Positions 15,073 to 35,713 of a DNA stretch of 36,274 nt are shown one piece after another. The number at the start of each line of letters is the position of its first letter. Positions within the stretch are counted from its first letter, which is position 1. The notes under the pieces are model-generated. The model was not told the origin of the DNA. It was given only the letters and a program-made list of their open reading frames with translations, and did no database searches. Origin of the DNA: a virus; the IMG/VR virus record IMGVR_UViG_3300036826_000250, positions 1 through 36,274 of that record; one strand, written 5' to 3'. Both the position numbers and the translations under genes were made by a program.

Positions 15073-15170
15073 CACCGGCTGTGCTGCTCCCGCAACACCC
15101 ATCGCGGCGGACGCTAGCACCGCGCGATCGGACCTGTCAAGCCTCGGCATCGGCCCGCGTTCGCTCCTGG

Positions 15171-16793
15171 CTAGTCGGCGATCCGCTGGAGCCCCTCGGT
15201 GCACCGGCAGTTCGAGACGACGAATCCGTCCGCACAATACAGGCTCGCCTGGGTGGATGCGTCGTATGCCCAGCCCTCGAACCAGGTGCGGCTCACGCGC
15301 TCCACGGTGAGCCAGGAGGCCGGTCGATGATCGTCAGTCGCAATCCGCGTGTCCGCGCCGCCCACGTCGCTCGACGCGGCCAGCGCGACTCGCTCGAAAC
15401 TCGTCAGCGACGCGCGGCCACGCGCGAGCAGCAGCGTCTCGGCATAGGTCGCCATGAGCACGCTTTCGCGCGCCTGCTCGACGCCGCGCAGATCCCATAC
15501 CGGCAGCAAGTAACGTGCGGGCCGTACAATCTCGACTTCGCCCTCGCAGAAGACCCGATCGCCGTGGAGATCGTGACCGGCTCCGGCAACGAGCGCGTGC
15601 GCGCCGCCCGATCGCGCCGCCTCGAACGCCTGCTCCAGGCATGGAATCTGTTCGAGGTGCGCTTCGTCTCCCCGCGTCATCGCACCATTCTGCCGGTGGT
15701 CGTACAGCACTTGATCGCCTATGCGCACCTCTGCCGCCGCGAGAAAGCCGCGGCGGGTCAGCATTGGGTGATTCGGCCCGATGGTCGTCGCATAGTGCCC
15801 GGCGCGCACGTGAATCGCTGGTCCGCGATACCGCGCGCGGACGAACTCTAGCAGCCCGCCGTAGGGCACGAACGTCGCCGCGCCCAGCACGGCGTTCGGG
15901 TGGAGCGGCGGGCCCTCGCCGCCCTCGCCGGGGAACTTGCCGCCGAGCGGGGCCGTCTCGCCGTCGAGGGCGTCACACTCGTCACAGAGCCGTTCGTCGT
16001 CGGTGACGATCCAGACGCGTTCGACCTCGGTGCCGCGCACCGACCCCCGGACGACGGCCTGATCCCACGCCTGTCGCTGCCCGGCGTTGACCGCCGCCAG
16101 GGTCTCCGTCCGCGCGATCATCTCCGCGCGCTGCGCGATCAATCGCGCCCGGTAGCGTTCGACCAGCCGCTCGACTCGGGCGGGGTCGAGCCCGCGATTC
16201 GACACGCGCGCCAGATTCGTGTCGACGGACGTCCCGGGCGGGGCGGCCTGGAGGCGCGTCAACGCGTCGCGGAAGTTCCGCACCGCCGCCCCGCCGCGCG
16301 GCGTGAGTCCGATCAGGCCGCGGAGCTCGGTGGCGAGCGCGCGCGGGGCCACGCCCTCGCGGATCGCCGTCGCCACGCGCGCCTGGATCGCCGCCCGGGT
16401 CTCGGCGGTGACGCGCGTCACGAGCTGGGCGGACCGCTCGGCGGCCCACGCGACGGCGGCGGGATGCGTGACGTCGAACGCGCCGGCCAGGACGGGGGGA
16501 TTCTGGAGCACCGCCTGCGCCCCGGCTTCGAGCGTGTCGCGGAGCTGTTGCGCCAGCGTCGTGCGCCACGCGGCGGTCGCCGTCGTCCAGGCCTGATCGG
16601 CCACGCGGAGCGCGTCCGCGATCCGGTTCTCGGCGATCAACCGCTCCAGACGTTGGCGGGGCGCGCCGTCGAGCGCGCGCGCGACGGTCTCGACGAACGC
16701 CCGCGCGACGGCGGGATCGGTGCGCCGGGCGGCGGCGAGGGCCGCGTTCGCGGCCCGCTGGCGCTGGGCGGGCGTGAACGTGACGGGCGGCAC
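15171..16793 (-). CDS. Minor head protein (Mu gpF-like) interrupted by an intein (540 aa precursor)
   Basis: Starts at GTG 16793 and ends in TAG. Residues 1-300 are a head-morphogenesis domain of the SPP1 gp7/Mu gpF type: long helices, EMIARTETLAAVNAGQRQAW at 224-243, VWIVTDDERLCDECDALDGE at 260-279 and GPPLHPN at 294-300. In the family the motif continues as HPNCRC. Here HPN is split from CRCTEGLQRIAD (529-540) by 228 foreign residues with intein motifs. Splicing would restore HPNCRC and give a 312-residue protein. The product normally sits at the portal vertex and helps packaging or ejection. It is followed by the scaffold and coat genes. Confidence 0.93.
   Translation of the reverse strand: MPPVTFTPAQRQRAANAALAAARRTDPAVARAFVETVARALDGAPRQRLERLIAENRIADALRVADQAWTTATAAWRTTLAQQLRDTLEAGAQAVLQNPPVLAGAFDVTHPAAVAWAAERSAQLVTRVTAETRAAIQARVATAIREGVAPRALATELRGLIGLTPRGGAAVRNFRDALTRLQAAPPGTSVDTNLARVSNRGLDPARVERLVERYRARLIAQRAEMIARTETLAAVNAGQRQAWDQAVVRGSVRGTEVERVWIVTDDERLCDECDALDGETAPLGGKFPGEGGEGPPLHPNAVLGAATFVPYGGLLEFVRARYRGPAIHVRAGHYATTIGPNHPMLTRRGFLAAAEVRIGDQVLYDHRQNGAMTRGDEAHLEQIPCLEQAFEAARSGGAHALVAGAGHDLHGDRVFCEGEVEIVRPARYLLPVWDLRGVEQARESVLMATYAETLLLARGRASLTSFERVALAASSDVGGADTRIATDDHRPASWLTVERVSRTWFEGWAYDASTQASLYCADGFVVSNCRCTEGLQRIAD
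15210..15893 (-). other. Intein (228 aa, Ala1 type) inside the minor head protein
   Basis: Encodes residues 301-528 of the precursor. It begins AVLGAATFVPYGG, with Ala instead of Cys or Ser as first residue. The Hint block-B-like motif is TTIGPNHPMLTRRGF at 336-350, followed by AAAEVRIGDQVL. The C-terminal block is WAYDASTQASLYCADGF leading to VVSN, with Cys529 as the downstream nucleophile. The usual penultimate His is Ser. Ala1 inteins are known to splice by direct attack of Cys+1. The middle (about 365-500) contains DLHGDRVF and EGEVEIVRP, as in other phage Hint domains. No LAGLIDADG or HNH endonuclease motif was recognised. Confidence 0.9.
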
Positions 16794-25176: not shown

Positions 25177-25304
25177 CGGGATTCCTCCGTCCGGCCGCAA
25201 TCGAAGACGCACGGGCCCCGGTGGCCGACGTCGCAGAGACATCGGCACCGGAAGCCCGCGCGGTGCGTGTGCGGGCAGGGGGCGTTGCACTTGACGGTGG
25301 GCAT
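25173..25304 (-). CDS. Cysteine-rich micro-protein (43 aa)
   Basis: ATG 25304 shares bases with the previous stop (TGATG) and the TGA overlaps the next start (ATGA). Seven of 43 residues are Cys with His nearby: CNAPCPHTH, CRCLCDVGH and CVFDCG. A treble-clef or double zinc knuckle is likely. Small phage proteins with the GFRCRCxCxxGHRGPC pattern are known, with no assigned role. The overlaps on both sides are strong evidence for translation. Confidence 0.86.
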   Translation of the reverse strand: MPTVKCNAPCPHTHRAGFRCRCLCDVGHRGPCVFDCGRTEESR

Positions 25305-26317
25305 CAATCCTCCTCGAGGGCGATGGCGCGCCGCTTCTTCGCCACGAGCATCGGCGCGATCGCCTGCTTGATCTGTTGAAAGCCCGCGCGGGTGCGGGCG
25401 CGGACGTCCGCCTGCTCCCGGATCGACTCCGGGTCGACGCCCGCCATGAGGGCGCGGGCCTTGTCCACGAGCGTGGCGAGTTGCCCGTCGTCGGTCAGGT
25501 TGCGGGCGCGGAACGTGTCGAGGAACTCCTTGACCCGCACGAGCGAGGTGTCGCGGAAGACCTGGGGCTTGCCGTTGGTGCGATCGGTCATCTTCTCGAC
25601 CATCTCGTCCACCACCTCGCCCATCGCGACGCGGAGCGCGATGCGGACGTCCTCGGCGGCGGACGCCATCGAGGCCTCGAACTCGGCGGTGGCCCGCCCG
25701 GCGAGCGCGGTGGAGATCCGGGCGAGCTGCCCGCCCGGCACCCCGAAGGAAATGTACGACCACCGGAAATCGAACAGGCCCGTCAGCGTGTCGACCGACG
25801 GGTATTCGTCCGGGTTGAACAGCGAGCCGAGCCGCGTCCGCGCGTCCTCCACGAGGCGCGGGTAAGCGGCGATGAACGCCTGAATCAGCGGCTTCCGCCG
25901 CGTGACGAACTCGGTCAACGTCGCGTCGACCTCGGCGAGGAGATCGAGCGCGACGAGATAGACGCCGTGACGGAAGAACGTGGCGGGGAGCGCGCGCCGG
26001 TAGATGTACCGCCGGGCGTCGGAATCGAGCCGCCGGATCGCCGTCAGCTCGTCGGATTCGAAAATGATCTTGGCGACGCGGATCATGTCCTTGTCGGCGT
26101 CGACCTCGACGGCCTCGGACGTGAGGCGCCGGCGCGTGCCGATCCGGCGCATGGTGACGGACAGACAGACCGCGCGGTCGAGGAGGTCGAGCCCGCCGCG
26201 CGGAGCCTCGGGCGTGGGCGCGGGCCCGATCGCCGCCTTCCGCCGCAGGACGGCGGCGACCTTCGGGAGCGTCTTCTTCGTGGGCGTCTTGGGCATCGTC
26301 AGGGTGGGCATCGTCAT
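25304..26317 (-). CDS. DUF3150-like protein of the AAA module (337 aa)
   Basis: Starts at ATG 26317 or, with better spacing from GGAG, at ATG 26311. The N-terminal 35 residues are basic and Thr/Pro-rich. The body is helical: LDRAVCLSVTMRRIGTRRRL at about 45-64, YIYRRALPATFFRHGVYLVA near 105, DATLTEFVTRRKPLIQAFIA near 130, then YPSVDTLTGLFDFRWSYISF and VPGGQLARIS. The order of elements resembles DUF3150, whose members often sit near phage AAA ATPases. The match is from memory of the pattern. It is downstream of the DUF2997-like gene in the AAA operon. No catalytic motif is visible. Confidence 0.9.
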   Translation of the reverse strand: MTMPTLTMPKTPTKKTLPKVAAVLRRKAAIGPAPTPEAPRGGLDLLDRAVCLSVTMRRIGTRRRLTSEAVEVDADKDMIRVAKIIFESDELTAIRRLDSDARRYIYRRALPATFFRHGVYLVALDLLAEVDATLTEFVTRRKPLIQAFIAAYPRLVEDARTRLGSLFNPDEYPSVDTLTGLFDFRWSYISFGVPGGQLARISTALAGRATAEFEASMASAAEDVRIALRVAMGEVVDEMVEKMTDRTNGKPQVFRDTSLVRVKEFLDTFRARNLTDDGQLATLVDKARALMAGVDPESIREQADVRARTRAGFQQIKQAIAPMLVAKKRRAIALEED

Positions 26318-26338: not shown

Positions 26339-26575
26339 TCACGCGTCGTGGGTGTGGGTGGTGTCGACGTCGTGGGCGTGTTCCCAGCCGTCGTGTGAAT
26401 GGACGTGGGCGTGGCGCCCCTCGGGCCGGGTCTCGGTCGTGGTCGTGCCGCCCTGGAGGCGGCGGATCGTGGCGAGGAACGCGTCCGCGTTCTCGTGATT
26501 GGGCGCGGACACCGCGTCGGTCTCCGTCTTCACGGTGCCGTCGCGGAGGATCGTGATGCGAATGCGGTCAGCCAT
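26339..26575 (-). CDS. DUF2997-like protein with His-rich tail (78 aa)
   Basis: ATG 26575 lies 8 bases inside the end of the preceding gene, after AGGAG. Residues 4-17 (RIRITILRDGTVKT) and the following NADAFLATIRRLQGG match the short DUF2997 family (IxIxIxPDGxVxxE, then CxxATxxLE). The last 28 residues are unusual, with nine His among Asp and Thr (HAHVHSHDGWEHAHD). A His/Asp-rich tail can bind Ni, Zn or Cu. DUF2997 proteins occur next to DUF1257 proteins and Ycf46-type AAA ATPases, as here. Function unknown. Confidence 0.9.
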   Translation of the reverse strand: MADRIRITILRDGTVKTETDAVSAPNHENADAFLATIRRLQGGTTTTETRPEGRHAHVHSHDGWEHAHDVDTTHTHDA

Positions 26576-26858
26576 TGGACTCTCCTGGCGCGGCGAGCCG
26601 CGCGTGTTGGGTGAGGATCGTGCGGGCGGGCTCCGTGACGGCGAGCCCCCAGGTGCCGCCGAGGGTGCAGACCGCCCAGATCGTCGCGTCGAGCTCGCGC
26701 CGGACGGCGACGTGGGACGGCTCGGCCTGATAGCGGAGGGCGAGGTACGAGGCCCGCCGCAGGAGCGAGGACAGGAACTGCCGCTCCTCGGCGGGGAGAT
26801 CGACGTCGGCCCGCGTGGGTGCGGCGACGTGGAGCGTGACCGGGAAGCGGGCGGTCAT
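26568..26858 (-). CDS. Small protein of the AAA module (96 aa)
   Basis: ATG 26858 is fused to the previous stop by TGATG, and the end overlaps the next gene by 8 bases. The sequence starts with strands (TARFPVTLHVAAPTRADVDL), then a long helix PAEERQFLSSLLRRASYLAL and a second VRRELDATIWAVCTLGGTWG. It lies between the DUF1257-like and DUF2997-like genes, so it probably belongs to the same unit. No family recognised. Confidence 0.88.
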   Translation of the reverse strand: MTARFPVTLHVAAPTRADVDLPAEERQFLSSLLRRASYLALRYQAEPSHVAVRRELDATIWAVCTLGGTWGLAVTEPARTILTQHARLAAPGESNG

Positions 26859-27229
26859 CAGTCCGCCCGCGTGAAGACGAGCGCGCGCTCGCCGGTCTGG
26901 GCGTCGACGTCGTCCGCCTCGACGTCCCACCCCATCTGGGCGGCGGCGACGGTGACGACTTCGCGGGCGTAGGCCTGCTTGATCGCGTCGATGAGGACGT
27001 CGGCGCGGTCGCGCCCGACGCCCTGCACGGTGACGACGTCGGGGCCGATCAGGACGGTGGCGCCGTCCGTGACGAAGCGGAGCCCGTTCAGCGGGTCGCC
27101 CGTCCGGTGGCGGTAGAGGGTGAGGGTCTCGGGCTCGACGGCGAAGCGCGTCTGGATGGCGAGGGCGAGGAGCCCCCGGTCGGCGGCTTCGAGTTTCGCG
27201 GTCGTGCGTTGGATCTGCCAACAGGGCAC
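26858..27229 (-). CDS. DUF1257-like protein of the AAA module (123 aa)
   Basis: GTG 27229 has AAGGAG 8 bases before it. The protein has alternating strands and helices: PCWQIQRTTAKLEAADRGLL, LALAIQTRFAVEPETLTLYR, TVLIGPDVVTVQGVGRDRAD and VLIDAIKQAYAREVVTVAAA, ending MGWDVEADDVDAQTGE. This resembles the Ycf35/DUF1257 pattern, where an A-L-A-G-Y-like helix, a VVxxG strand and a YxxxxVxxxAxxxGWxV end are typical. Ycf35-, DUF2997- and Ycf46-like genes occur together in several genomes, and the same trio is seen here. The match is moderate. Confidence 0.88.
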   Translation of the reverse strand: MPCWQIQRTTAKLEAADRGLLALAIQTRFAVEPETLTLYRHRTGDPLNGLRFVTDGATVLIGPDVVTVQGVGRDRADVLIDAIKQAYAREVVTVAAAQMGWDVEADDVDAQTGERALVFTRAD

Positions 27230-27233
27230 TGGA

Positions 27234-27725
27234 CTATCTCCTTTTGCGCGCGATGGCGCAGGTGCGACATGTGATGTAGGTGCCCGAGCGACCGTCACGC
27301 CGGCGGTACCACGCCGTCATGCCGTGTCGAGCGAGAAGGTGTCCGCGCTGACACCGACGACGGACGCCGCGCACGGTGGCCCGCGCGAGTCGCCCGGTCA
27401 TCGGATCACGACCGATCTCGCCGCGCTCCAGATGAAGGCGGCTGTGACAGCCGCGACAGAGGAAGTCGATGTTGCTCGGGTCGTTGTTCAGCGAATTGCC
27501 GTCGCGATGATGCCGAAACGCGGGACGTCCGCACGCGCAGCGTTGCGGAGGGAACGCGCGTTGCGCTCGTTTCCAGCCAGCGGCGCGCGAGGCGCGGTCG
27601 CCCTTTGAAACGGCGGCGCGTTGCCGTTGGCGAGCCTCGGGCGTGAGCCCGAGACGGAGGTGATGATGTTGGACAAAGCGTCGACCGCGCGCGATCCGTG
27701 TGCCACAGCCGCAGGCGCACGTCAT
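27234..27725 (-). CDS. HNH endonuclease with flanking zinc knuckles (163 aa)
   Basis: ATG 27725 is joined to the previous stop by TGATG; ends in TAG. The HNH core is complete: CACGRPAFRHHRDGNSLN at about 63-80, NNDPSNIDFLCRGCHSRLH at 80-98. His72-His73 and Asn86 are candidate catalytic residues, and the CxC...CxxC cysteines hold Zn. Two further Cys groups lie outside: CACGCG at 3-8 and CQRGH...CRTC near 125-155. Free-standing HNH genes in phages are often homing endonucleases that spread by cutting alleles lacking them. It splits the AAA-module genes, which fits a mobile insertion. Some HNH proteins instead assist packaging. Confidence 0.93.
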   Translation of the reverse strand: MTCACGCGTRIARGRRFVQHHHLRLGLTPEARQRQRAAVSKGDRASRAAGWKRAQRAFPPQRCACGRPAFRHHRDGNSLNNDPSNIDFLCRGCHSRLHLERGEIGRDPMTGRLARATVRGVRRRCQRGHLLARHGMTAWYRRRDGRSGTYITCRTCAIARKRR

Positions 27726-27946: not shown

Positions 27947-29503
27947 CTACTCCTTGCCCACCGCGCGGCGCGACCGCAGGGGCGACGCGGTCACGCCGGG
28001 GGTCGGCGTCTGGGTGTACGTGCCGGGCGTGGACGCGGAGAGGAATCGTCCGGCAGCGAGCCCGCGCAGCCGGTCGATTTTCTCCGGGTCGGACTTGGCG
28101 ATGGGGACGAGGTACGCCGCCGCCTCACGCAACGTGCAGCCGAGGGCGTAGGCGTTGTCGACGCAGTTCCGAATGTCCGCGCCCGTCCAGTCGGTGTCAT
28201 CGGGGCGCGGCTGCGCCGGGTCCACGGTCGGGTAGCGCGCCAGGGTCAAGGTCCAGATCGCGCGCCGCTCCTCGTGAGTCGGCAGATCGAAGTACCAGAG
28301 GCCGCACCGCTCGAACCGGCGGCGCACCTCGGGCTTGAGGCTGGACAGGTCGTTACACGTGGCGACGAACAGCGCCCCGCCCCGACCGGCGAGCGCGCGG
28401 ATCGTCTTGAACAGGGCGCGGATGCGCTGCTCGGAGGAGCCGACGAACCGATCGGCGGTCGCGGCGAAGTCCGCCGTGATGCCGAGCACGTCGAACTCGA
28501 CGTGGAGCGCGGTGGTGAGGAACGTCTTGCCGGTGCCGGGCGGGCCCAACGTCAGGCAGCCGCCGTACTCCTGGTCCTCCATCTCGCGACAGATGACGCC
28601 GAGGCGATCGGTCGAGGTGCCGGAGGAATCGGTGGCCCCGCGGCCGTCGCCGCCGCCGGTGCCGCCCATCATCTTCTCGAACTCGTCGAGCCGCACGACG
28701 ACGCGCGGCCGCCGCGGGCCGGCGAAGTACCGCTGGGCCCAGGTCTTGAACGACTGATTGCCGCCGATCTCGGCGAACCGGACGCCGCCGCGCTCGACGG
28801 CGAGCCCGGGGGTCTGCTCGATCGCCGCGCGGCGGCGCTCGCGGAGATCCTCGAGATCGACGCCAACGCCGCCGGAGGCTTGCGCCCGGACGGCCATCGC
28901 GACGGCTTGCTCGGCCGGGTAGAGCGGGAGCCCGCGCACGGATTCGGCGACGCGGGTGATCGCCTCGGCGGCGAGGTCGTCGCCGACCAGCTCGCCGACC
29001 ATCGTGGTCAGCTGGGCGTCATCGGGCAGAGGTTCATCCAATTGCATGACGTCCGCCGCCAGCTCGGGCGGCCACGTGAAGGACGGCGCGAGCAGGACGA
29101 CGGTGCGCGGGGCGGGCTTGCCGTCCTCGTCGCGGGTGCCCTTCAACGCGTCGCGGAGGTTCCAGAGGGCCTGGGTCGGCCCCGCCGGGTCGGTCGGCCC
29201 GAAGAAGCGATGGGCGTGGACGAGGAACAGGACGGAACGCGGGGGCATTTTCGGCGCGGCGAGGAGGATCTCGGCGAGTTTGGCCCCGACGGGGGGGACG
29301 CCGAGCGCGGCGATCAACGCCTCGCCCGGGCGGTTCAACGGGCGGATCCCGCTCGCGATGTCCCACGCGGCGACGCCGGTCTCGCCGTTGACGGCGGCGG
29401 TGAGCGTCTCCATGGTCGCGGCGGCGTTGGACGTGGTGATGGCGACGAGCGAGGTGTCCGCGCGGCGCGCGTGCTTGAACGTGGTGACGAGATCGGTCGA
29501 CAT
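27947..29503 (-). CDS. Walker-permuted AAA+ ATPase, Ycf46-like (518 aa)
   Basis: ATG 29503 with AAGGAG at 8 bases; ends in TAG. Residues 1-170 form a degenerate N-terminal domain without a P-loop (SVLFLVHAHRFFGPTDP, TVVLLAPSFTWPPELAADV), as in Ycf46-type ATPases. The second domain is permuted. EIGGNQSFKTWAQRYF (245-260) is followed first by RVVVRLDEFEKMMGG (267-281, Walker B), then a Gly/Ser linker and helix, then Walker A GPPGTGKT (320-327), DRFVGSSEQRIRALF (351-365), sensor-1 FVATCND (379-385) and the arginine-finger region PEVRRRFERC (391-400). All active-site elements are present. Related permuted ATPases occur in other phages. Substrate unknown; a remodelling role is likely. Confidence 0.95.
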   Translation of the reverse strand: MSTDLVTTFKHARRADTSLVAITTSNAAATMETLTAAVNGETGVAAWDIASGIRPLNRPGEALIAALGVPPVGAKLAEILLAAPKMPPRSVLFLVHAHRFFGPTDPAGPTQALWNLRDALKGTRDEDGKPAPRTVVLLAPSFTWPPELAADVMQLDEPLPDDAQLTTMVGELVGDDLAAEAITRVAESVRGLPLYPAEQAVAMAVRAQASGGVGVDLEDLRERRRAAIEQTPGLAVERGGVRFAEIGGNQSFKTWAQRYFAGPRRPRVVVRLDEFEKMMGGTGGGDGRGATDSSGTSTDRLGVICREMEDQEYGGCLTLGPPGTGKTFLTTALHVEFDVLGITADFAATADRFVGSSEQRIRALFKTIRALAGRGGALFVATCNDLSSLKPEVRRRFERCGLWYFDLPTHEERRAIWTLTLARYPTVDPAQPRPDDTDWTGADIRNCVDNAYALGCTLREAAAYLVPIAKSDPEKIDRLRGLAAGRFLSASTPGTYTQTPTPGVTASPLRSRRAVGKE

Positions 29504-32868: not shown

Positions 32869-33068
32869 CACAAGCCCTCCAGGGACGGCGGCGGCCCGGG
32901 CTCGGCGAGCGAGTCCGGCTCCGTGTGCGTCACGCGGACGGTCGGCCACGCCGCGCGATCATCCGGGAAGCGCATCGCCACCTGGGCGTCGCCCACGGTG
33001 ACGATGACGCTCAGCGCCGCGTCGCGGCGGACGATGTCGAGGGCGACCCGGTCCCACGCAGCAGACAT
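32868..33068 (-). CDS. Small protein overlapping the ABC-GNAT gene (66 aa)
   Basis: ATG 33068 lies 58 bases inside the end of the ABC-GNAT gene in another frame, with GGAG 8 bases before it. The product SAAWDRVALDIVRRDAALSV, IVTVGDAQVAMRFPDDRAAW and TVRVTHTEPDSLAEPGPP looks like a small alpha/beta domain. In the overlap both frames keep plausible codons, so the C-terminus of the fusion protein may be a recent extension. Function unknown. Confidence 0.82.
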   Translation of the reverse strand: MSAAWDRVALDIVRRDAALSVIVTVGDAQVAMRFPDDRAAWPTVRVTHTEPDSLAEPGPPPSLEGL

Positions 33069-34171
33069 GTCACGCGCTCCTCGTCGGGCTCGGCGGGCCC
33101 CGTGTAGGCGAACGTCGCGTTCGGGCGGCCGCCGAAGTACCCGTACATGTTCTTCCGCGGCGTCGTCCAGTTGGGCGTCGACCAGATCCCCGGGCGCTTG
33201 ATGCACGCCCAGTGGGGCGAGCGCTCGAACGACCGAATCAGCGCCGGGTGCGCCGGATAGGTGTGGACGCGGAGCCCGCGCGTCTTGTACGCGGCGCCGA
33301 GCGCCTCGATCAGGATGAGGGCGAGCCCGAGCCCTTGCCAATCGGGGAGCGTCACGAGTCGAGAGCACCCCCACACGTCGGCGACCTTCGGATGGGGGCG
33401 GTACATCATCGCGGCGAAGGACGCGGGCTGCCCGTCGACGGCGAGCACGTAGCATTTCGCCCCGTGATGGAGCGACGCCGTCAGATAGTGAAAGCGACGA
33501 AACAGGTCCCAGGCGGCGTAGGGCACCCGGGCCACTTCGACGCCGAGCCGGGGGCGGGGTTGAACCGCCCTCCGGGTGAACGTCATGGTGGCGGGCTCGA
33601 GGAGCCAGTCGGGCTGGAGCCAGTCGATCACGTCGTAGTGGCACGTCGCCGCCACGAACTGCCGCCCGGGCGTCCGGCGGATCGCCTTCTGCACGGCGTG
33701 AGCGCCGATCTTCGCCACCTGGCGGTCGACGACCGAGGTGAATTCGTCGACGACGATGGGCCGGTCGGCGGGCGTCTCGACCAGCCGCCGCGCCAGCTCC
33801 ACCCGGAAGCGCTCGCCGTTCGACAGGACCCGGTACGGGCGCATCCAGGCGGGAATGGTGTTGAAGCCGACCGCTTGGCAGACCGCGCTGATCTCGTCCA
33901 TCGTGAGCGTCTTGGCGAAATCGTCCACGACCGCGGGCGCGGTCCACGCGTATTCGGTGGGCGCGCCGAAGCATTCGCGGAGGAGCGTCGATTTGCCCGA
34001 CCCGGACGGCCCGACCAGGAGCCCGATCTGCCAGGGCGCGGCCTCCACGGGCGCGTCGCCGTGCCAATCGAGGCGACTCTTGACGACGAGCGGGACATCG
34101 AACATCGCCGACAGTTGCTTGACGCGCGGCGACGTGGACAGATCGGTCTCGACGGCGACGTCGATCTTCAA
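33011..34171 (-). CDS. ABC-type ATPase fused to a GNAT acetyltransferase (386 aa)
   Basis: I place the start at TTG 34171, which overlaps the preceding TGA (TTGA) and follows AAGGA at about 9 bases. Residues 1-200 are an ABC ATPase: Walker A GPSGSGKST at 54-62, signature LSNGERFRVELARRL at 116-130, Walker B PIVVDEFTSVVDR at 138-150 with the catalytic Glu143, and the switch His178 in ATCHYD. No membrane domain is present, so it is not a transporter subunit. Residues about 205-355 are a GNAT fold with motif A RLVTLPDWQGLGLALILIEA at 271-290. Acetyl-CoA-dependent modification powered or gated by the ATPase is possible. The target is unknown. The genes around it are ParB- and RusA-like. Confidence 0.93.
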   Translation of the reverse strand: MKIDVAVETDLSTSPRVKQLSAMFDVPLVVKSRLDWHGDAPVEAAPWQIGLLVGPSGSGKSTLLRECFGAPTEYAWTAPAVVDDFAKTLTMDEISAVCQAVGFNTIPAWMRPYRVLSNGERFRVELARRLVETPADRPIVVDEFTSVVDRQVAKIGAHAVQKAIRRTPGRQFVAATCHYDVIDWLQPDWLLEPATMTFTRRAVQPRPRLGVEVARVPYAAWDLFRRFHYLTASLHHGAKCYVLAVDGQPASFAAMMYRPHPKVADVWGCSRLVTLPDWQGLGLALILIEALGAAYKTRGLRVHTYPAHPALIRSFERSPHWACIKRPGIWSTPNWTTPRKNMYGYFGGRPNATFAYTGPAEPDEERVTCLLRGTGSPSTSSAATRR

Positions 34172-34635
34172 ATCGTCCCGTCCTTGCCGAAGTCCGGCAG
34201 CCCGTCGCCGGCGGGATCGAGGCACGCCCAGAGATGCAGACAGAACTCGTGGAGGTTCACGTGCCGATCGGCGCGCGGGAAGACCTGGACGGCCTGGCGC
34301 TGATCGCCGACGAAGACGCGCTTCACGTCGGCGACGTCGGCGTAGGAGGGAATGTACTTCCGCCGGCTGACCGAGACGTGGAGCCAGAGCCGGCCCTCCG
34401 GGACGCCGTCCATCGCGTGGCGGGCGACGGTGCCGATCACGCGCCGCCCGTCGACGTGCTCGAACGTGCGGAGGCCGTCCAACCCCGCCGCCTGGAGATC
34501 CCCCCGGCGCGTCGCGCGCCACCCGTGCGGGAGCCGGAGGGCGTCCGCCCAGGCGGCGGTCTCGCGGGCCGCCTCGATGTACTCGACCTCGCTGCACAGC
34601 GGAATATGGGCGATCAGATGATGAGCGCCTTGCAT
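34168..34635 (-). CDS. DUF7694-like protein (155 aa)
   Basis: ATG 34635 lies 22 bases inside the ParB-like gene. The C-terminal half is the recognisable part: RLWLHVSVSRRKYIPSYADV at about 83-102, then DVKRVFVGDQRQAVQVFPRA, HVNLHEFCLHLWACLDPAGD and LPDFGKDGTI. The pattern WLHVSxSRxxxxPSxxD, Q-x-hxP, YVNxHxxxxHLW recurs in a phage family that I remember as DUF7694. The N-terminal half has a helix AARETAAWADALRLPHGWRA. Function unknown. It is coupled to the ABC-GNAT gene by TTGA, hinting at joint action. Confidence 0.88.
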   Translation of the reverse strand: MQGAHHLIAHIPLCSEVEYIEAARETAAWADALRLPHGWRATRRGDLQAAGLDGLRTFEHVDGRRVIGTVARHAMDGVPEGRLWLHVSVSRRKYIPSYADVADVKRVFVGDQRQAVQVFPRADRHVNLHEFCLHLWACLDPAGDGLPDFGKDGTI

Positions 34636-35240
34636 GGCAACCCCTCCTGGGCGAACCGCGCGAGGAGTTCGGCTTGGTGCGCCTCGTCGCGGCATTCGAG
34701 AATCACTTGATAGACGCGCGTGATGGACAAATCGGCGGGCGGCCCCGGCCCCGCGAGCCGTTTGAGGAGCGCGTCGACGTCCTCGCCGTCATACCCGACG
34801 CCCTGGAGCGCGTTCGCCTGGGCGAGCTCGCCGAGCATCGTCGCGAGGAGCGCCTCGTCCTGCCAGCCGCCGAGCGTGGTCAGCCGATTGTCGGCAATCA
34901 AAAAGGCTTCGGCTTCCTGCTCGGTGGCGAACGCGACGCCGGTCAGGACCGGCACGAACCATCGGCCCTCGGGGTCCACGCGGATGCGGGCGGGCGCGGG
35001 TTTGCCGGTGGCGCGGCGCTGGAGCAACGCCTCCAGGCGCCCGTGACCCGCCACGAGTCGCTGCGTGGCGTCGTCCAACACGAGCGGCGTCACGAACCCG
35101 AACCGGTCGAGCGACGCGTGGAGCGCCCCGAGATCGTGCCCTTTCGGGTTGCGCGGCCACGCGGCGAGCGTGTCGACGTCCCGGTATTCCAGATGCACGC
35201 CGTCGGGCGCGGGCGCGGCGGGCGGTTTCTTCTTCGCCAT
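34614..35240 (-). CDS. ParB/Srx-domain protein (208 aa)
   Basis: ATG 35240 shares its first base with the stop of the RusA-like gene (TGATG). The ParB N-terminal domain spans residues about 15-120: LEYRDVDTLAAWPRNPKGHD, SLDRFGFVTPLVLDDATQRL and the nucleotide-binding motif VAGHGRLEAL at 63-72, then EAEAFLIADNRLTTLGGW. The C-terminal part ends in VYQVILECRDEAHQAELLAR, an extension common in phage members. In this family the domain binds CTP or ATP. Phage versions occur near DNA methylases, terminases or recombination genes. Partition is unlikely without ParA. Confidence 0.93.
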   Translation of the reverse strand: MAKKKPPAAPAPDGVHLEYRDVDTLAAWPRNPKGHDLGALHASLDRFGFVTPLVLDDATQRLVAGHGRLEALLQRRATGKPAPARIRVDPEGRWFVPVLTGVAFATEQEAEAFLIADNRLTTLGGWQDEALLATMLGELAQANALQGVGYDGEDVDALLKRLAGPGPPADLSITRVYQVILECRDEAHQAELLARFAQEGLPCKALII

Positions 35241-35713
35241 CAGGCGGGCTCCTCCACGAGGGCGACGCGGATGGTCACGCCGCGCCGCCCGTCGACGATT
35301 TGGGTGTAGGTGAACACGTGCCGCTCGACGTCCGCGTCGTCGGCGATCACCCGCGCGTCGATCAGACCGTCGACGATGGGCTTGCACGCCGCGCGGAGGT
35401 TGTCGTGCGAATCGAACCGCCGCATCACGTGGGCGCGGAGATCAATGCGCTTCGCCGCGCGGCGGTTCACGATGCGCCACCGGAGCCCGCGCGGGTCGAG
35501 GCACGCCCCCCAGACGGACACCTTGGTCGCCTCGCGCTGTCGCGCGACGCGCGCCGCCGTCATCGTCCAATGGGCGCGCGTGTTCAACGGGTTGACGAGC
35601 GTGGTGCTGACGAACAGGCAGAAATGCCGATCGGTGACCTCGAGCGGCGGGTCGGGCAGGATCGGCAGGATCCGCCCGCGCCGTCCGGGATGGATCGCCG
35701 CGCGGCGGCTCAC
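35240..35713 (-). CDS. RusA-like Holliday junction resolvase (157 aa)
   Basis: I place the start at GTG 35713; GTG 35749 in the same frame would add 12 residues. The RusA pattern is clear: LFVSTTLVNPLNTRAHWTM at 34-52, then the acidic active-site region RRFDSHDNLRAACKPIVDGL at 99-118 and DARVIADDADVERH at 119-132. Asp101, Asp104, Asp115 and Asp126 are candidate metal ligands. The enzyme cuts four-way junctions, clearing branched DNA before packaging. Beside the ParB-like gene, it belongs to the recombination block. Length is slightly above the usual 120. Confidence 0.92.
   Translation of the reverse strand: MSRRAAIHPGRRGRILPILPDPPLEVTDRHFCLFVSTTLVNPLNTRAHWTMTAARVARQREATKVSVWGACLDPRGLRWRIVNRRAAKRIDLRAHVMRRFDSHDNLRAACKPIVDGLIDARVIADDADVERHVFTYTQIVDGRRGVTIRVALVEEPA

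Follow-up and report, generated by a model that had tools for sequence, protein, structure and literature searches.

Does a protein in which Walker B precedes Walker A still form an AAA+ ATPase, and how did it come by this order? The AAA+ fold is to our knowledge among the most conserved enzyme folds, and the question arose from a gene in the window, the 36,274 nucleotides analysed here (positions 1 to 36,274 of IMG/VR record IMGVR_UViG_3300036826_000250), a virus record that carries terminase and portal genes. The original prediction had claimed a 518-aa protein with Walker B (267-281) ahead of Walker A (320-327). The open reading frame is real, the motifs lie at the claimed positions and a motif search agreed with their order; we add that the gene is located on the minus strand, as no strand had been given. 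The gene and its motifs are listed below.

27947..29503, minus strand: permuted Ycf46-like AAA+ ATPase, 518 aa; an open reading frame with the motif order found in 151 distinct proteins
28784..29503, minus strand: N-terminal module, aa 1-240, common to canonical-order relatives (profile 7-257)
28718..28777, minus strand: GG helix FAEIGGNQSFKTWAQRYFAG, aa 243-262, ahead of the AAA core
28562..28711, minus strand: transposed block B, aa 265-314, with β3, Walker B DEFEK, the Gly-rich loop and α3
28661..28705, minus strand: Walker B RVVVRLDEFEKMMGG, aa 267-281; D273 and E274 100% conserved in 134 proteins
28382..28561, minus strand: block A, aa 315-374, with β1, Walker A, α1, β2, the pore-loop-1 region and α2
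28523..28546, minus strand: Walker A GPPGTGKT, aa 320-327
28349..28375, minus strand: sensor 1 strand ALFVATCND, aa 377-385; N384 100% conserved, coupled in parallel to the Walker B strand
28313..28324, minus strand: putative arginine-finger motif RRRF, aa 394-397, assigned by position; R396 100% conserved
28004..28276, minus strand: C-terminal lid, aa 410-500, with PDDTDWTGADI

Along the chain, the GG helix is followed by Walker B VVVRLDEFEK (from 268), a Gly/Ser-rich loop, α3 STDRLGVICREMED and Walker A (320), after which come VGSSE at 354 within α2 VGSSEQRIRALFKTIRAL, sensor 1 (377) and RRRF (394-397). A second, canonical Walker B between residues 340 and 380, which would speak against a moved segment, was absent: no hydrophobic-DE motif was found at 340-385 of the window protein. 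Pfam AAA (PF00004) matched the native protein with 39.8 bits (cut-off 21.2), with only positions 2-55 of 131 aligned and the match confined to block A. As in Ycf46, the N-terminal module is probably AAA-like but degenerate.

We scanned viral and genome contigs and obtained 151 distinct permuted proteins, the one of the window included, and 20 relatives with canonical order. The motif search placed Walker B 30-60 residues ahead of Walker A in all 151 permuted proteins, and the canonical chain order β1-α1-β2-α2-β3-α3-β4 was broken in every one of them. In the first full alignment, which held 134 permuted proteins, D273, E274, G320, G323, K326, G355, N384 and R396 were invariant (100%), and Walker A, Walker B, sensor 1 and the arginine finger were all present and conserved. 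The commonest form of the P-loop, found in the largest group of the permuted family, was GPPGAAKS. A canonical-order Ycf46-like AAA ATPase on another contig (L131 4623-7136) carries an HNH-bearing intein within Walker A (VHN|TGKS).

The window is a metagenomic virus record, so that the unusual order might have been produced by assembly or sequencing. However, the permuted proteins come from many independent metagenomes and MAGs, and one of them, gp103 of Tunturiibacter phage Tunturi_3, belongs to a cultured phage. Since independent records share the order, an assembly artefact is ruled out, and we regard an artefact of either kind as next to inconceivable. The permuted order is far beyond chance and no quirk of the window contig.

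To locate the rearrangement, each permuted protein was cut into four pieces, which were searched with a profile built from canonical-order relatives only. In chain order, the pieces mapped to profile positions 7-257, 335-375, 276-333 and 378-518 (medians; 151/151), where the first piece takes in the GG helix. The isolated moved segment matched the canonical Walker B-α3 region with an i-E below 1e-3 in 151/151 proteins, and a linker to β1 of about 18 positions (profile 258-275), found in canonical relatives, was missing from the permuted proteins. By this mapping the β3-α3 and β1-α1-β2-α2 blocks are exchanged. Because both flanks are unmoved, this is an internal transposition and no circular permutation. 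In a BLAST comparison with Corndogvirus gp100, the moved block likewise aligned on its own, 267-311 matching 373-412.

The canonical order was also restored computationally, purely as a homology test. Reordering raised the Pfam AAA score of the window protein from 39.8 bits to 62.0 bits (positions 2-125), compared to 38.4 bits without the moved block and 42.5 bits with the block reversed. Across the 151 proteins, the median best-domain score against the canonical-relative profile was 91 bits for the native and 304 bits for the reordered form, and 154 bits and about 163 bits when the block was left out or shuffled, respectively. The reordered form outscored the native form and the shuffles in all 151 proteins.

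These results bear on whether the moved segment is merely Walker B-like and the protein a degenerate, non-hydrolysing AAA-like scaffold. Such a scaffold would fit the relaxed P-loop of much of the family, GPPGAAKS being the commonest, and a Pfam AAA match that covers just the first 55 positions in the native protein. Yet D, E and K do not vary across the 134 aligned proteins, and each isolated block matches the canonical Walker B region. Moreover, GxxGxAKS P-loops are known from active MCM and RavA-type ATPases. We therefore consider a degenerate scaffold very improbable.

We next turned to the fold. AlphaFold2, run with 91 aligned sequences, modelled the window protein with a pLDDT of 92.4 and a pTM of 0.88; as its input is the same sequence family, the model may lean on the common AAA+ fold. 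It predicted strands at 268-272, 314-319, 340-344, 377-383 and 402-404 with helices between them, those of block B at 275-280 and 296-310. In Foldseek searches the whole chain aligned to the double-AAA proteins Rix7, p97 and Cdc48, and the top matches among viral models were Ycf46-like proteins. The Ycf46-like layout is thus present, with an N-terminal module, a C-terminal AAA module and Ycf46 models as the nearest viral fold, which bears out the claim that Ycf46 is the nearest relative.

In a normal AAA+ domain the sheet order is 5-1-4-3-2 and Walker B lies beside sensor 1. We looked for this arrangement by coevolution in the 151 sequences (effective number 121), a small set that provides moderate evidence. 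Out of 446 windows, the one that scored highest with the Walker B strand was a parallel pairing with 375-381, the sensor-1 strand, which reached 6.0 compared to 3.4 for the best window elsewhere, while the β3-β4 block alone reached only the top 2.3% of random blocks. Helix α3 coupled to α2 (D299-E358 and E307-R369), and V268-A372 and R267-R374 coupled at the ancestral α2-to-β3 connection, where the chain no longer joins. The β3-β2 signal was weak. The coevolution and the AlphaFold2 secondary structure agree with sheet order 5-1-4-3-2, within the limits of a small set and the weak β3-β2 signal. The pattern provides moderate support for a sheet like that of normal AAA+ domains, in which the Walker B strand lies on the sensor-1 strand. 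The original prediction had the DEFEK strand docking next to the P-loop; here the coupling to the sensor-1 strand stands, and the 151 sequences gave no coevolution signal between the Walker B and Walker A strands.

Profiles and coevolution are blind to whether contacts in a homo-oligomer lie within or between chains. The moved β3-α3 block could hence complete the active site of the neighbouring subunit in a domain-swapped ring instead of its own. Against such a ring, the connecting loops are short, with about 6 residues leading from the GG helix to β3 and 3 from α3 to β1, and AlphaFold2 folds the block within one chain with high confidence. We judge the swapped ring to be very improbable.

To address the history of the order, a maximum-likelihood tree was built from 46 permuted proteins and 17 canonical ones, the latter being phage and MAG relatives only. 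The permuted proteins formed one clade (SH-aLRT 100), and support for a single permuted group was 99 with the swapped segments left out. Its sister was formed by canonical-order Planctomycete-type proteins (L111, L112, L119, L122 and L124). As AAA+ proteins at large have, as far as we know, the canonical order, the simplest reading is that the order changed just once, from canonical to permuted. The long branches inside the clade suggest an old event, and together the data point to one ancient rearrangement. A route through duplication and deletion is plausible, with its intermediates unseen: among the 164 proteins searched, none had a Walker A with a Walker B block on each side. Besides Tunturi_3, the nearest plain BLAST matches among named phages were Corndog gp100 and Javan368, which at first looked like close relatives and which the tree shows to be distant canonical ones.

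The original prediction had supposed that similar phage proteins exist and that the Walker B segment was shifted ahead of the P-loop with the fold kept. The homologue search returned 151 permuted proteins in one clade, and profile mapping, block reordering, AlphaFold2, coevolution and the tree agree on the shift.

Clustering of neighbouring genes showed that the permuted gene belongs to a same-strand cassette, with these members in the window:

26858..27298, minus strand: DUF1257 (Ycf35)-like gene (Pfam weak, E 0.033; family profile E 2.4e-22)
26339..26575, minus strand: DUF2997-like small gene (family profile E 1.8e-26; no Pfam match of its own)
25304..26317, minus strand: DUF3150-like gene for a largely helical protein of 337 aa (21.3 bits in Pfam, under the cut-off)

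In the window, the names DUF1257 and DUF2997 come from family profiles that include these genes and from links between cluster profiles, with no Pfam match above the cut-off. The DUF1257 clusters were joined by a profile-profile link and relatives score above the cut-off for DUF1257; the two DUF2997 clusters were linked by hhalign at 92%, and a relative in the other cluster reached 57 bits for DUF2997. For the DUF3150-like protein a relative scored 33.6 bits, above the Pfam cut-off. The AlphaFold2 model of this protein had a pLDDT of 89, and a fold search with it gave no PDB match at E <= 0.001. Among the 69 loci flanked by 3.5 kb or more on either side, DUF1257 was present in 67, DUF2997 in 68 and the DUF3150-like gene in 67, and 66 had all three. 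The canonical sister group has DUF1257, DUF2997 and DUF3150-like neighbours; DUF1257 and DUF2997 also neighbour the gene in several further canonical phage relatives. As the cassette is common to canonical relatives, the permuted protein fills the same slot. An NrdG-like radical-SAM activase was found within the cassette at 17 of 98 loci (e.g. L092 8120-8692); this neighbour, present in a minority of loci only, hints at redox or Fe-S work.

Two other assignments were rejected. A MoxR/CobS-type ATPase, suggested by the DUF3150 neighbour, did not agree with an AAA_5 score of 12.2 bits (cut-off 22) and best matches to classical AAA. A role in anti-phage defence was based on PADLOC matches restricted to the P-loop of IetA ATPases (E about 1e-4).

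Elsewhere in the window we noted further genes. At 15171-16793 (minus strand) lies a Mu-F-like head protein (PF04233), in which about 228 aa seem to interrupt the C-terminal HPNCRC motif. The insert (15210-15893) starts with AVLGAATF and ends with FVVSN before CRC; from its sequence it is possibly an intein with alanine as first residue, without a family match. An open reading frame antisense to it (15081-15851, plus strand) resembles by eye a VSR/DUF559-type nuclease, with no Pfam support. At 33011-34597 (minus strand) an ABC-type ATPase is fused to a GNAT acetyltransferase (phrog_11143, E 5e-92; PF00583; weak PADLOC match to mad3), and a gene for a DUF7694 protein adjoins one for a ParB-like protein (34168-34695 and 34614-35387, both minus strand).

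Taken together, we favour, with a probability of roughly 0.88 for this structural reading, an intact Ycf46-type AAA+ ATPase in which a single ancestral block transposition has rearranged the core. The support for the swap, the conservation, the single origin, the fold and the cassette consists of sequence, model and coevolution data. In this reading the β3-α3 block with Walker B moved ahead of β1-α1-β2-α2 with Walker A, giving the chain β3-α3-β1-α1-β2-α2-β4-α4-β5-lid. All three new junctions would lie at the N-terminal edges of parallel strands, off the catalytic edge, and therefore sheet order and active site could stay those of a normal AAA+ domain. The active site would keep P-loop K326, Walker B D273/E274, sensor-1 N384 and, in trans, arginine finger R396. 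Such an ATPase might form an ATP-driven ring and remodel a partner within the phage-borne DUF1257/DUF2997/DUF3150-like cassette; the best candidate for a substrate or adaptor would be the helical DUF3150-like protein. We put this function forward tentatively, from ATP hydrolysis and ring assembly to remodelling and the part of the DUF3150-like protein.

AAA+ domains are defined and searched by motif order, and here a large phage family breaks that order. The chain connectivity of the AAA+ fold can thus be rearranged in nature, and automatic annotation detects only half of such a permuted domain. The family offers a natural test of whether the order of the chain matters to AAA+ mechanics, and its close canonical sister family can serve as control. 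It further highlights an uncharacterised phage Ycf46-Ycf35(DUF1257)-DUF2997-DUF3150 cassette, some parts of which also occur in photosynthetic organisms. In the open-licence literature no naturally permuted AAA+ domain came up, and the permuted enzymes met there were methylases; subscription journals were mostly outside this scope and priority is unproven. The same literature held no mention of DUF3150, or of DUF1257 together with phage.

Among known systems, the best viral fold matches were the Ycf46-like AAA ATPases of cyanobacteria and plastids, with phage copies such as BFVD A0A6J5NS46 and A0A0U3CC34 of Pseudomonas phage SM1. The canonical Ycf46-like phage relatives share the N-terminal module, the lid and the DUF1257 and DUF2997 partners with the permuted family. 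However, in those examined Walker A comes first, whereas in the permuted family the blocks are swapped and the linker before β1 is gone. The sister group (Planctomycete MAG L111/L112 and phage contigs L119-L124) has the canonical motif order, and the PDDTDWTGAEI-type lid of L111/L112 is near-identical to the PDDTDWTGADI of the window. PHROGs groups the permuted family with canonical proteins, and public annotation goes no further than 'ATPase'. The profile of phrog_8638, to which the Corndogvirus gp100 'AAA-ATPase' belongs, was matched by 91/91 permuted members scanned. Corndog gp100 matches it end to end in canonical order, the window protein in three separate stretches. For the chain as a whole, the best fold matches in the PDB included Rix7 and p97/Cdc48, and the best PDB sequence matches to the P-loop half included Cdc48/VCP-like proteins and AFG2; unlike the permuted family, Rix7, p97/Cdc48 and AFG2 have the canonical order, and they have other roles. 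Finally, RsgA/YjeQ and YlqF are circularly permuted P-loop GTPases that keep their active site despite a changed motif order. These belong to another P-loop class and are true circular permutations, whereas the permuted AAA+ proteins carry an internal swap between flanks that have not moved.
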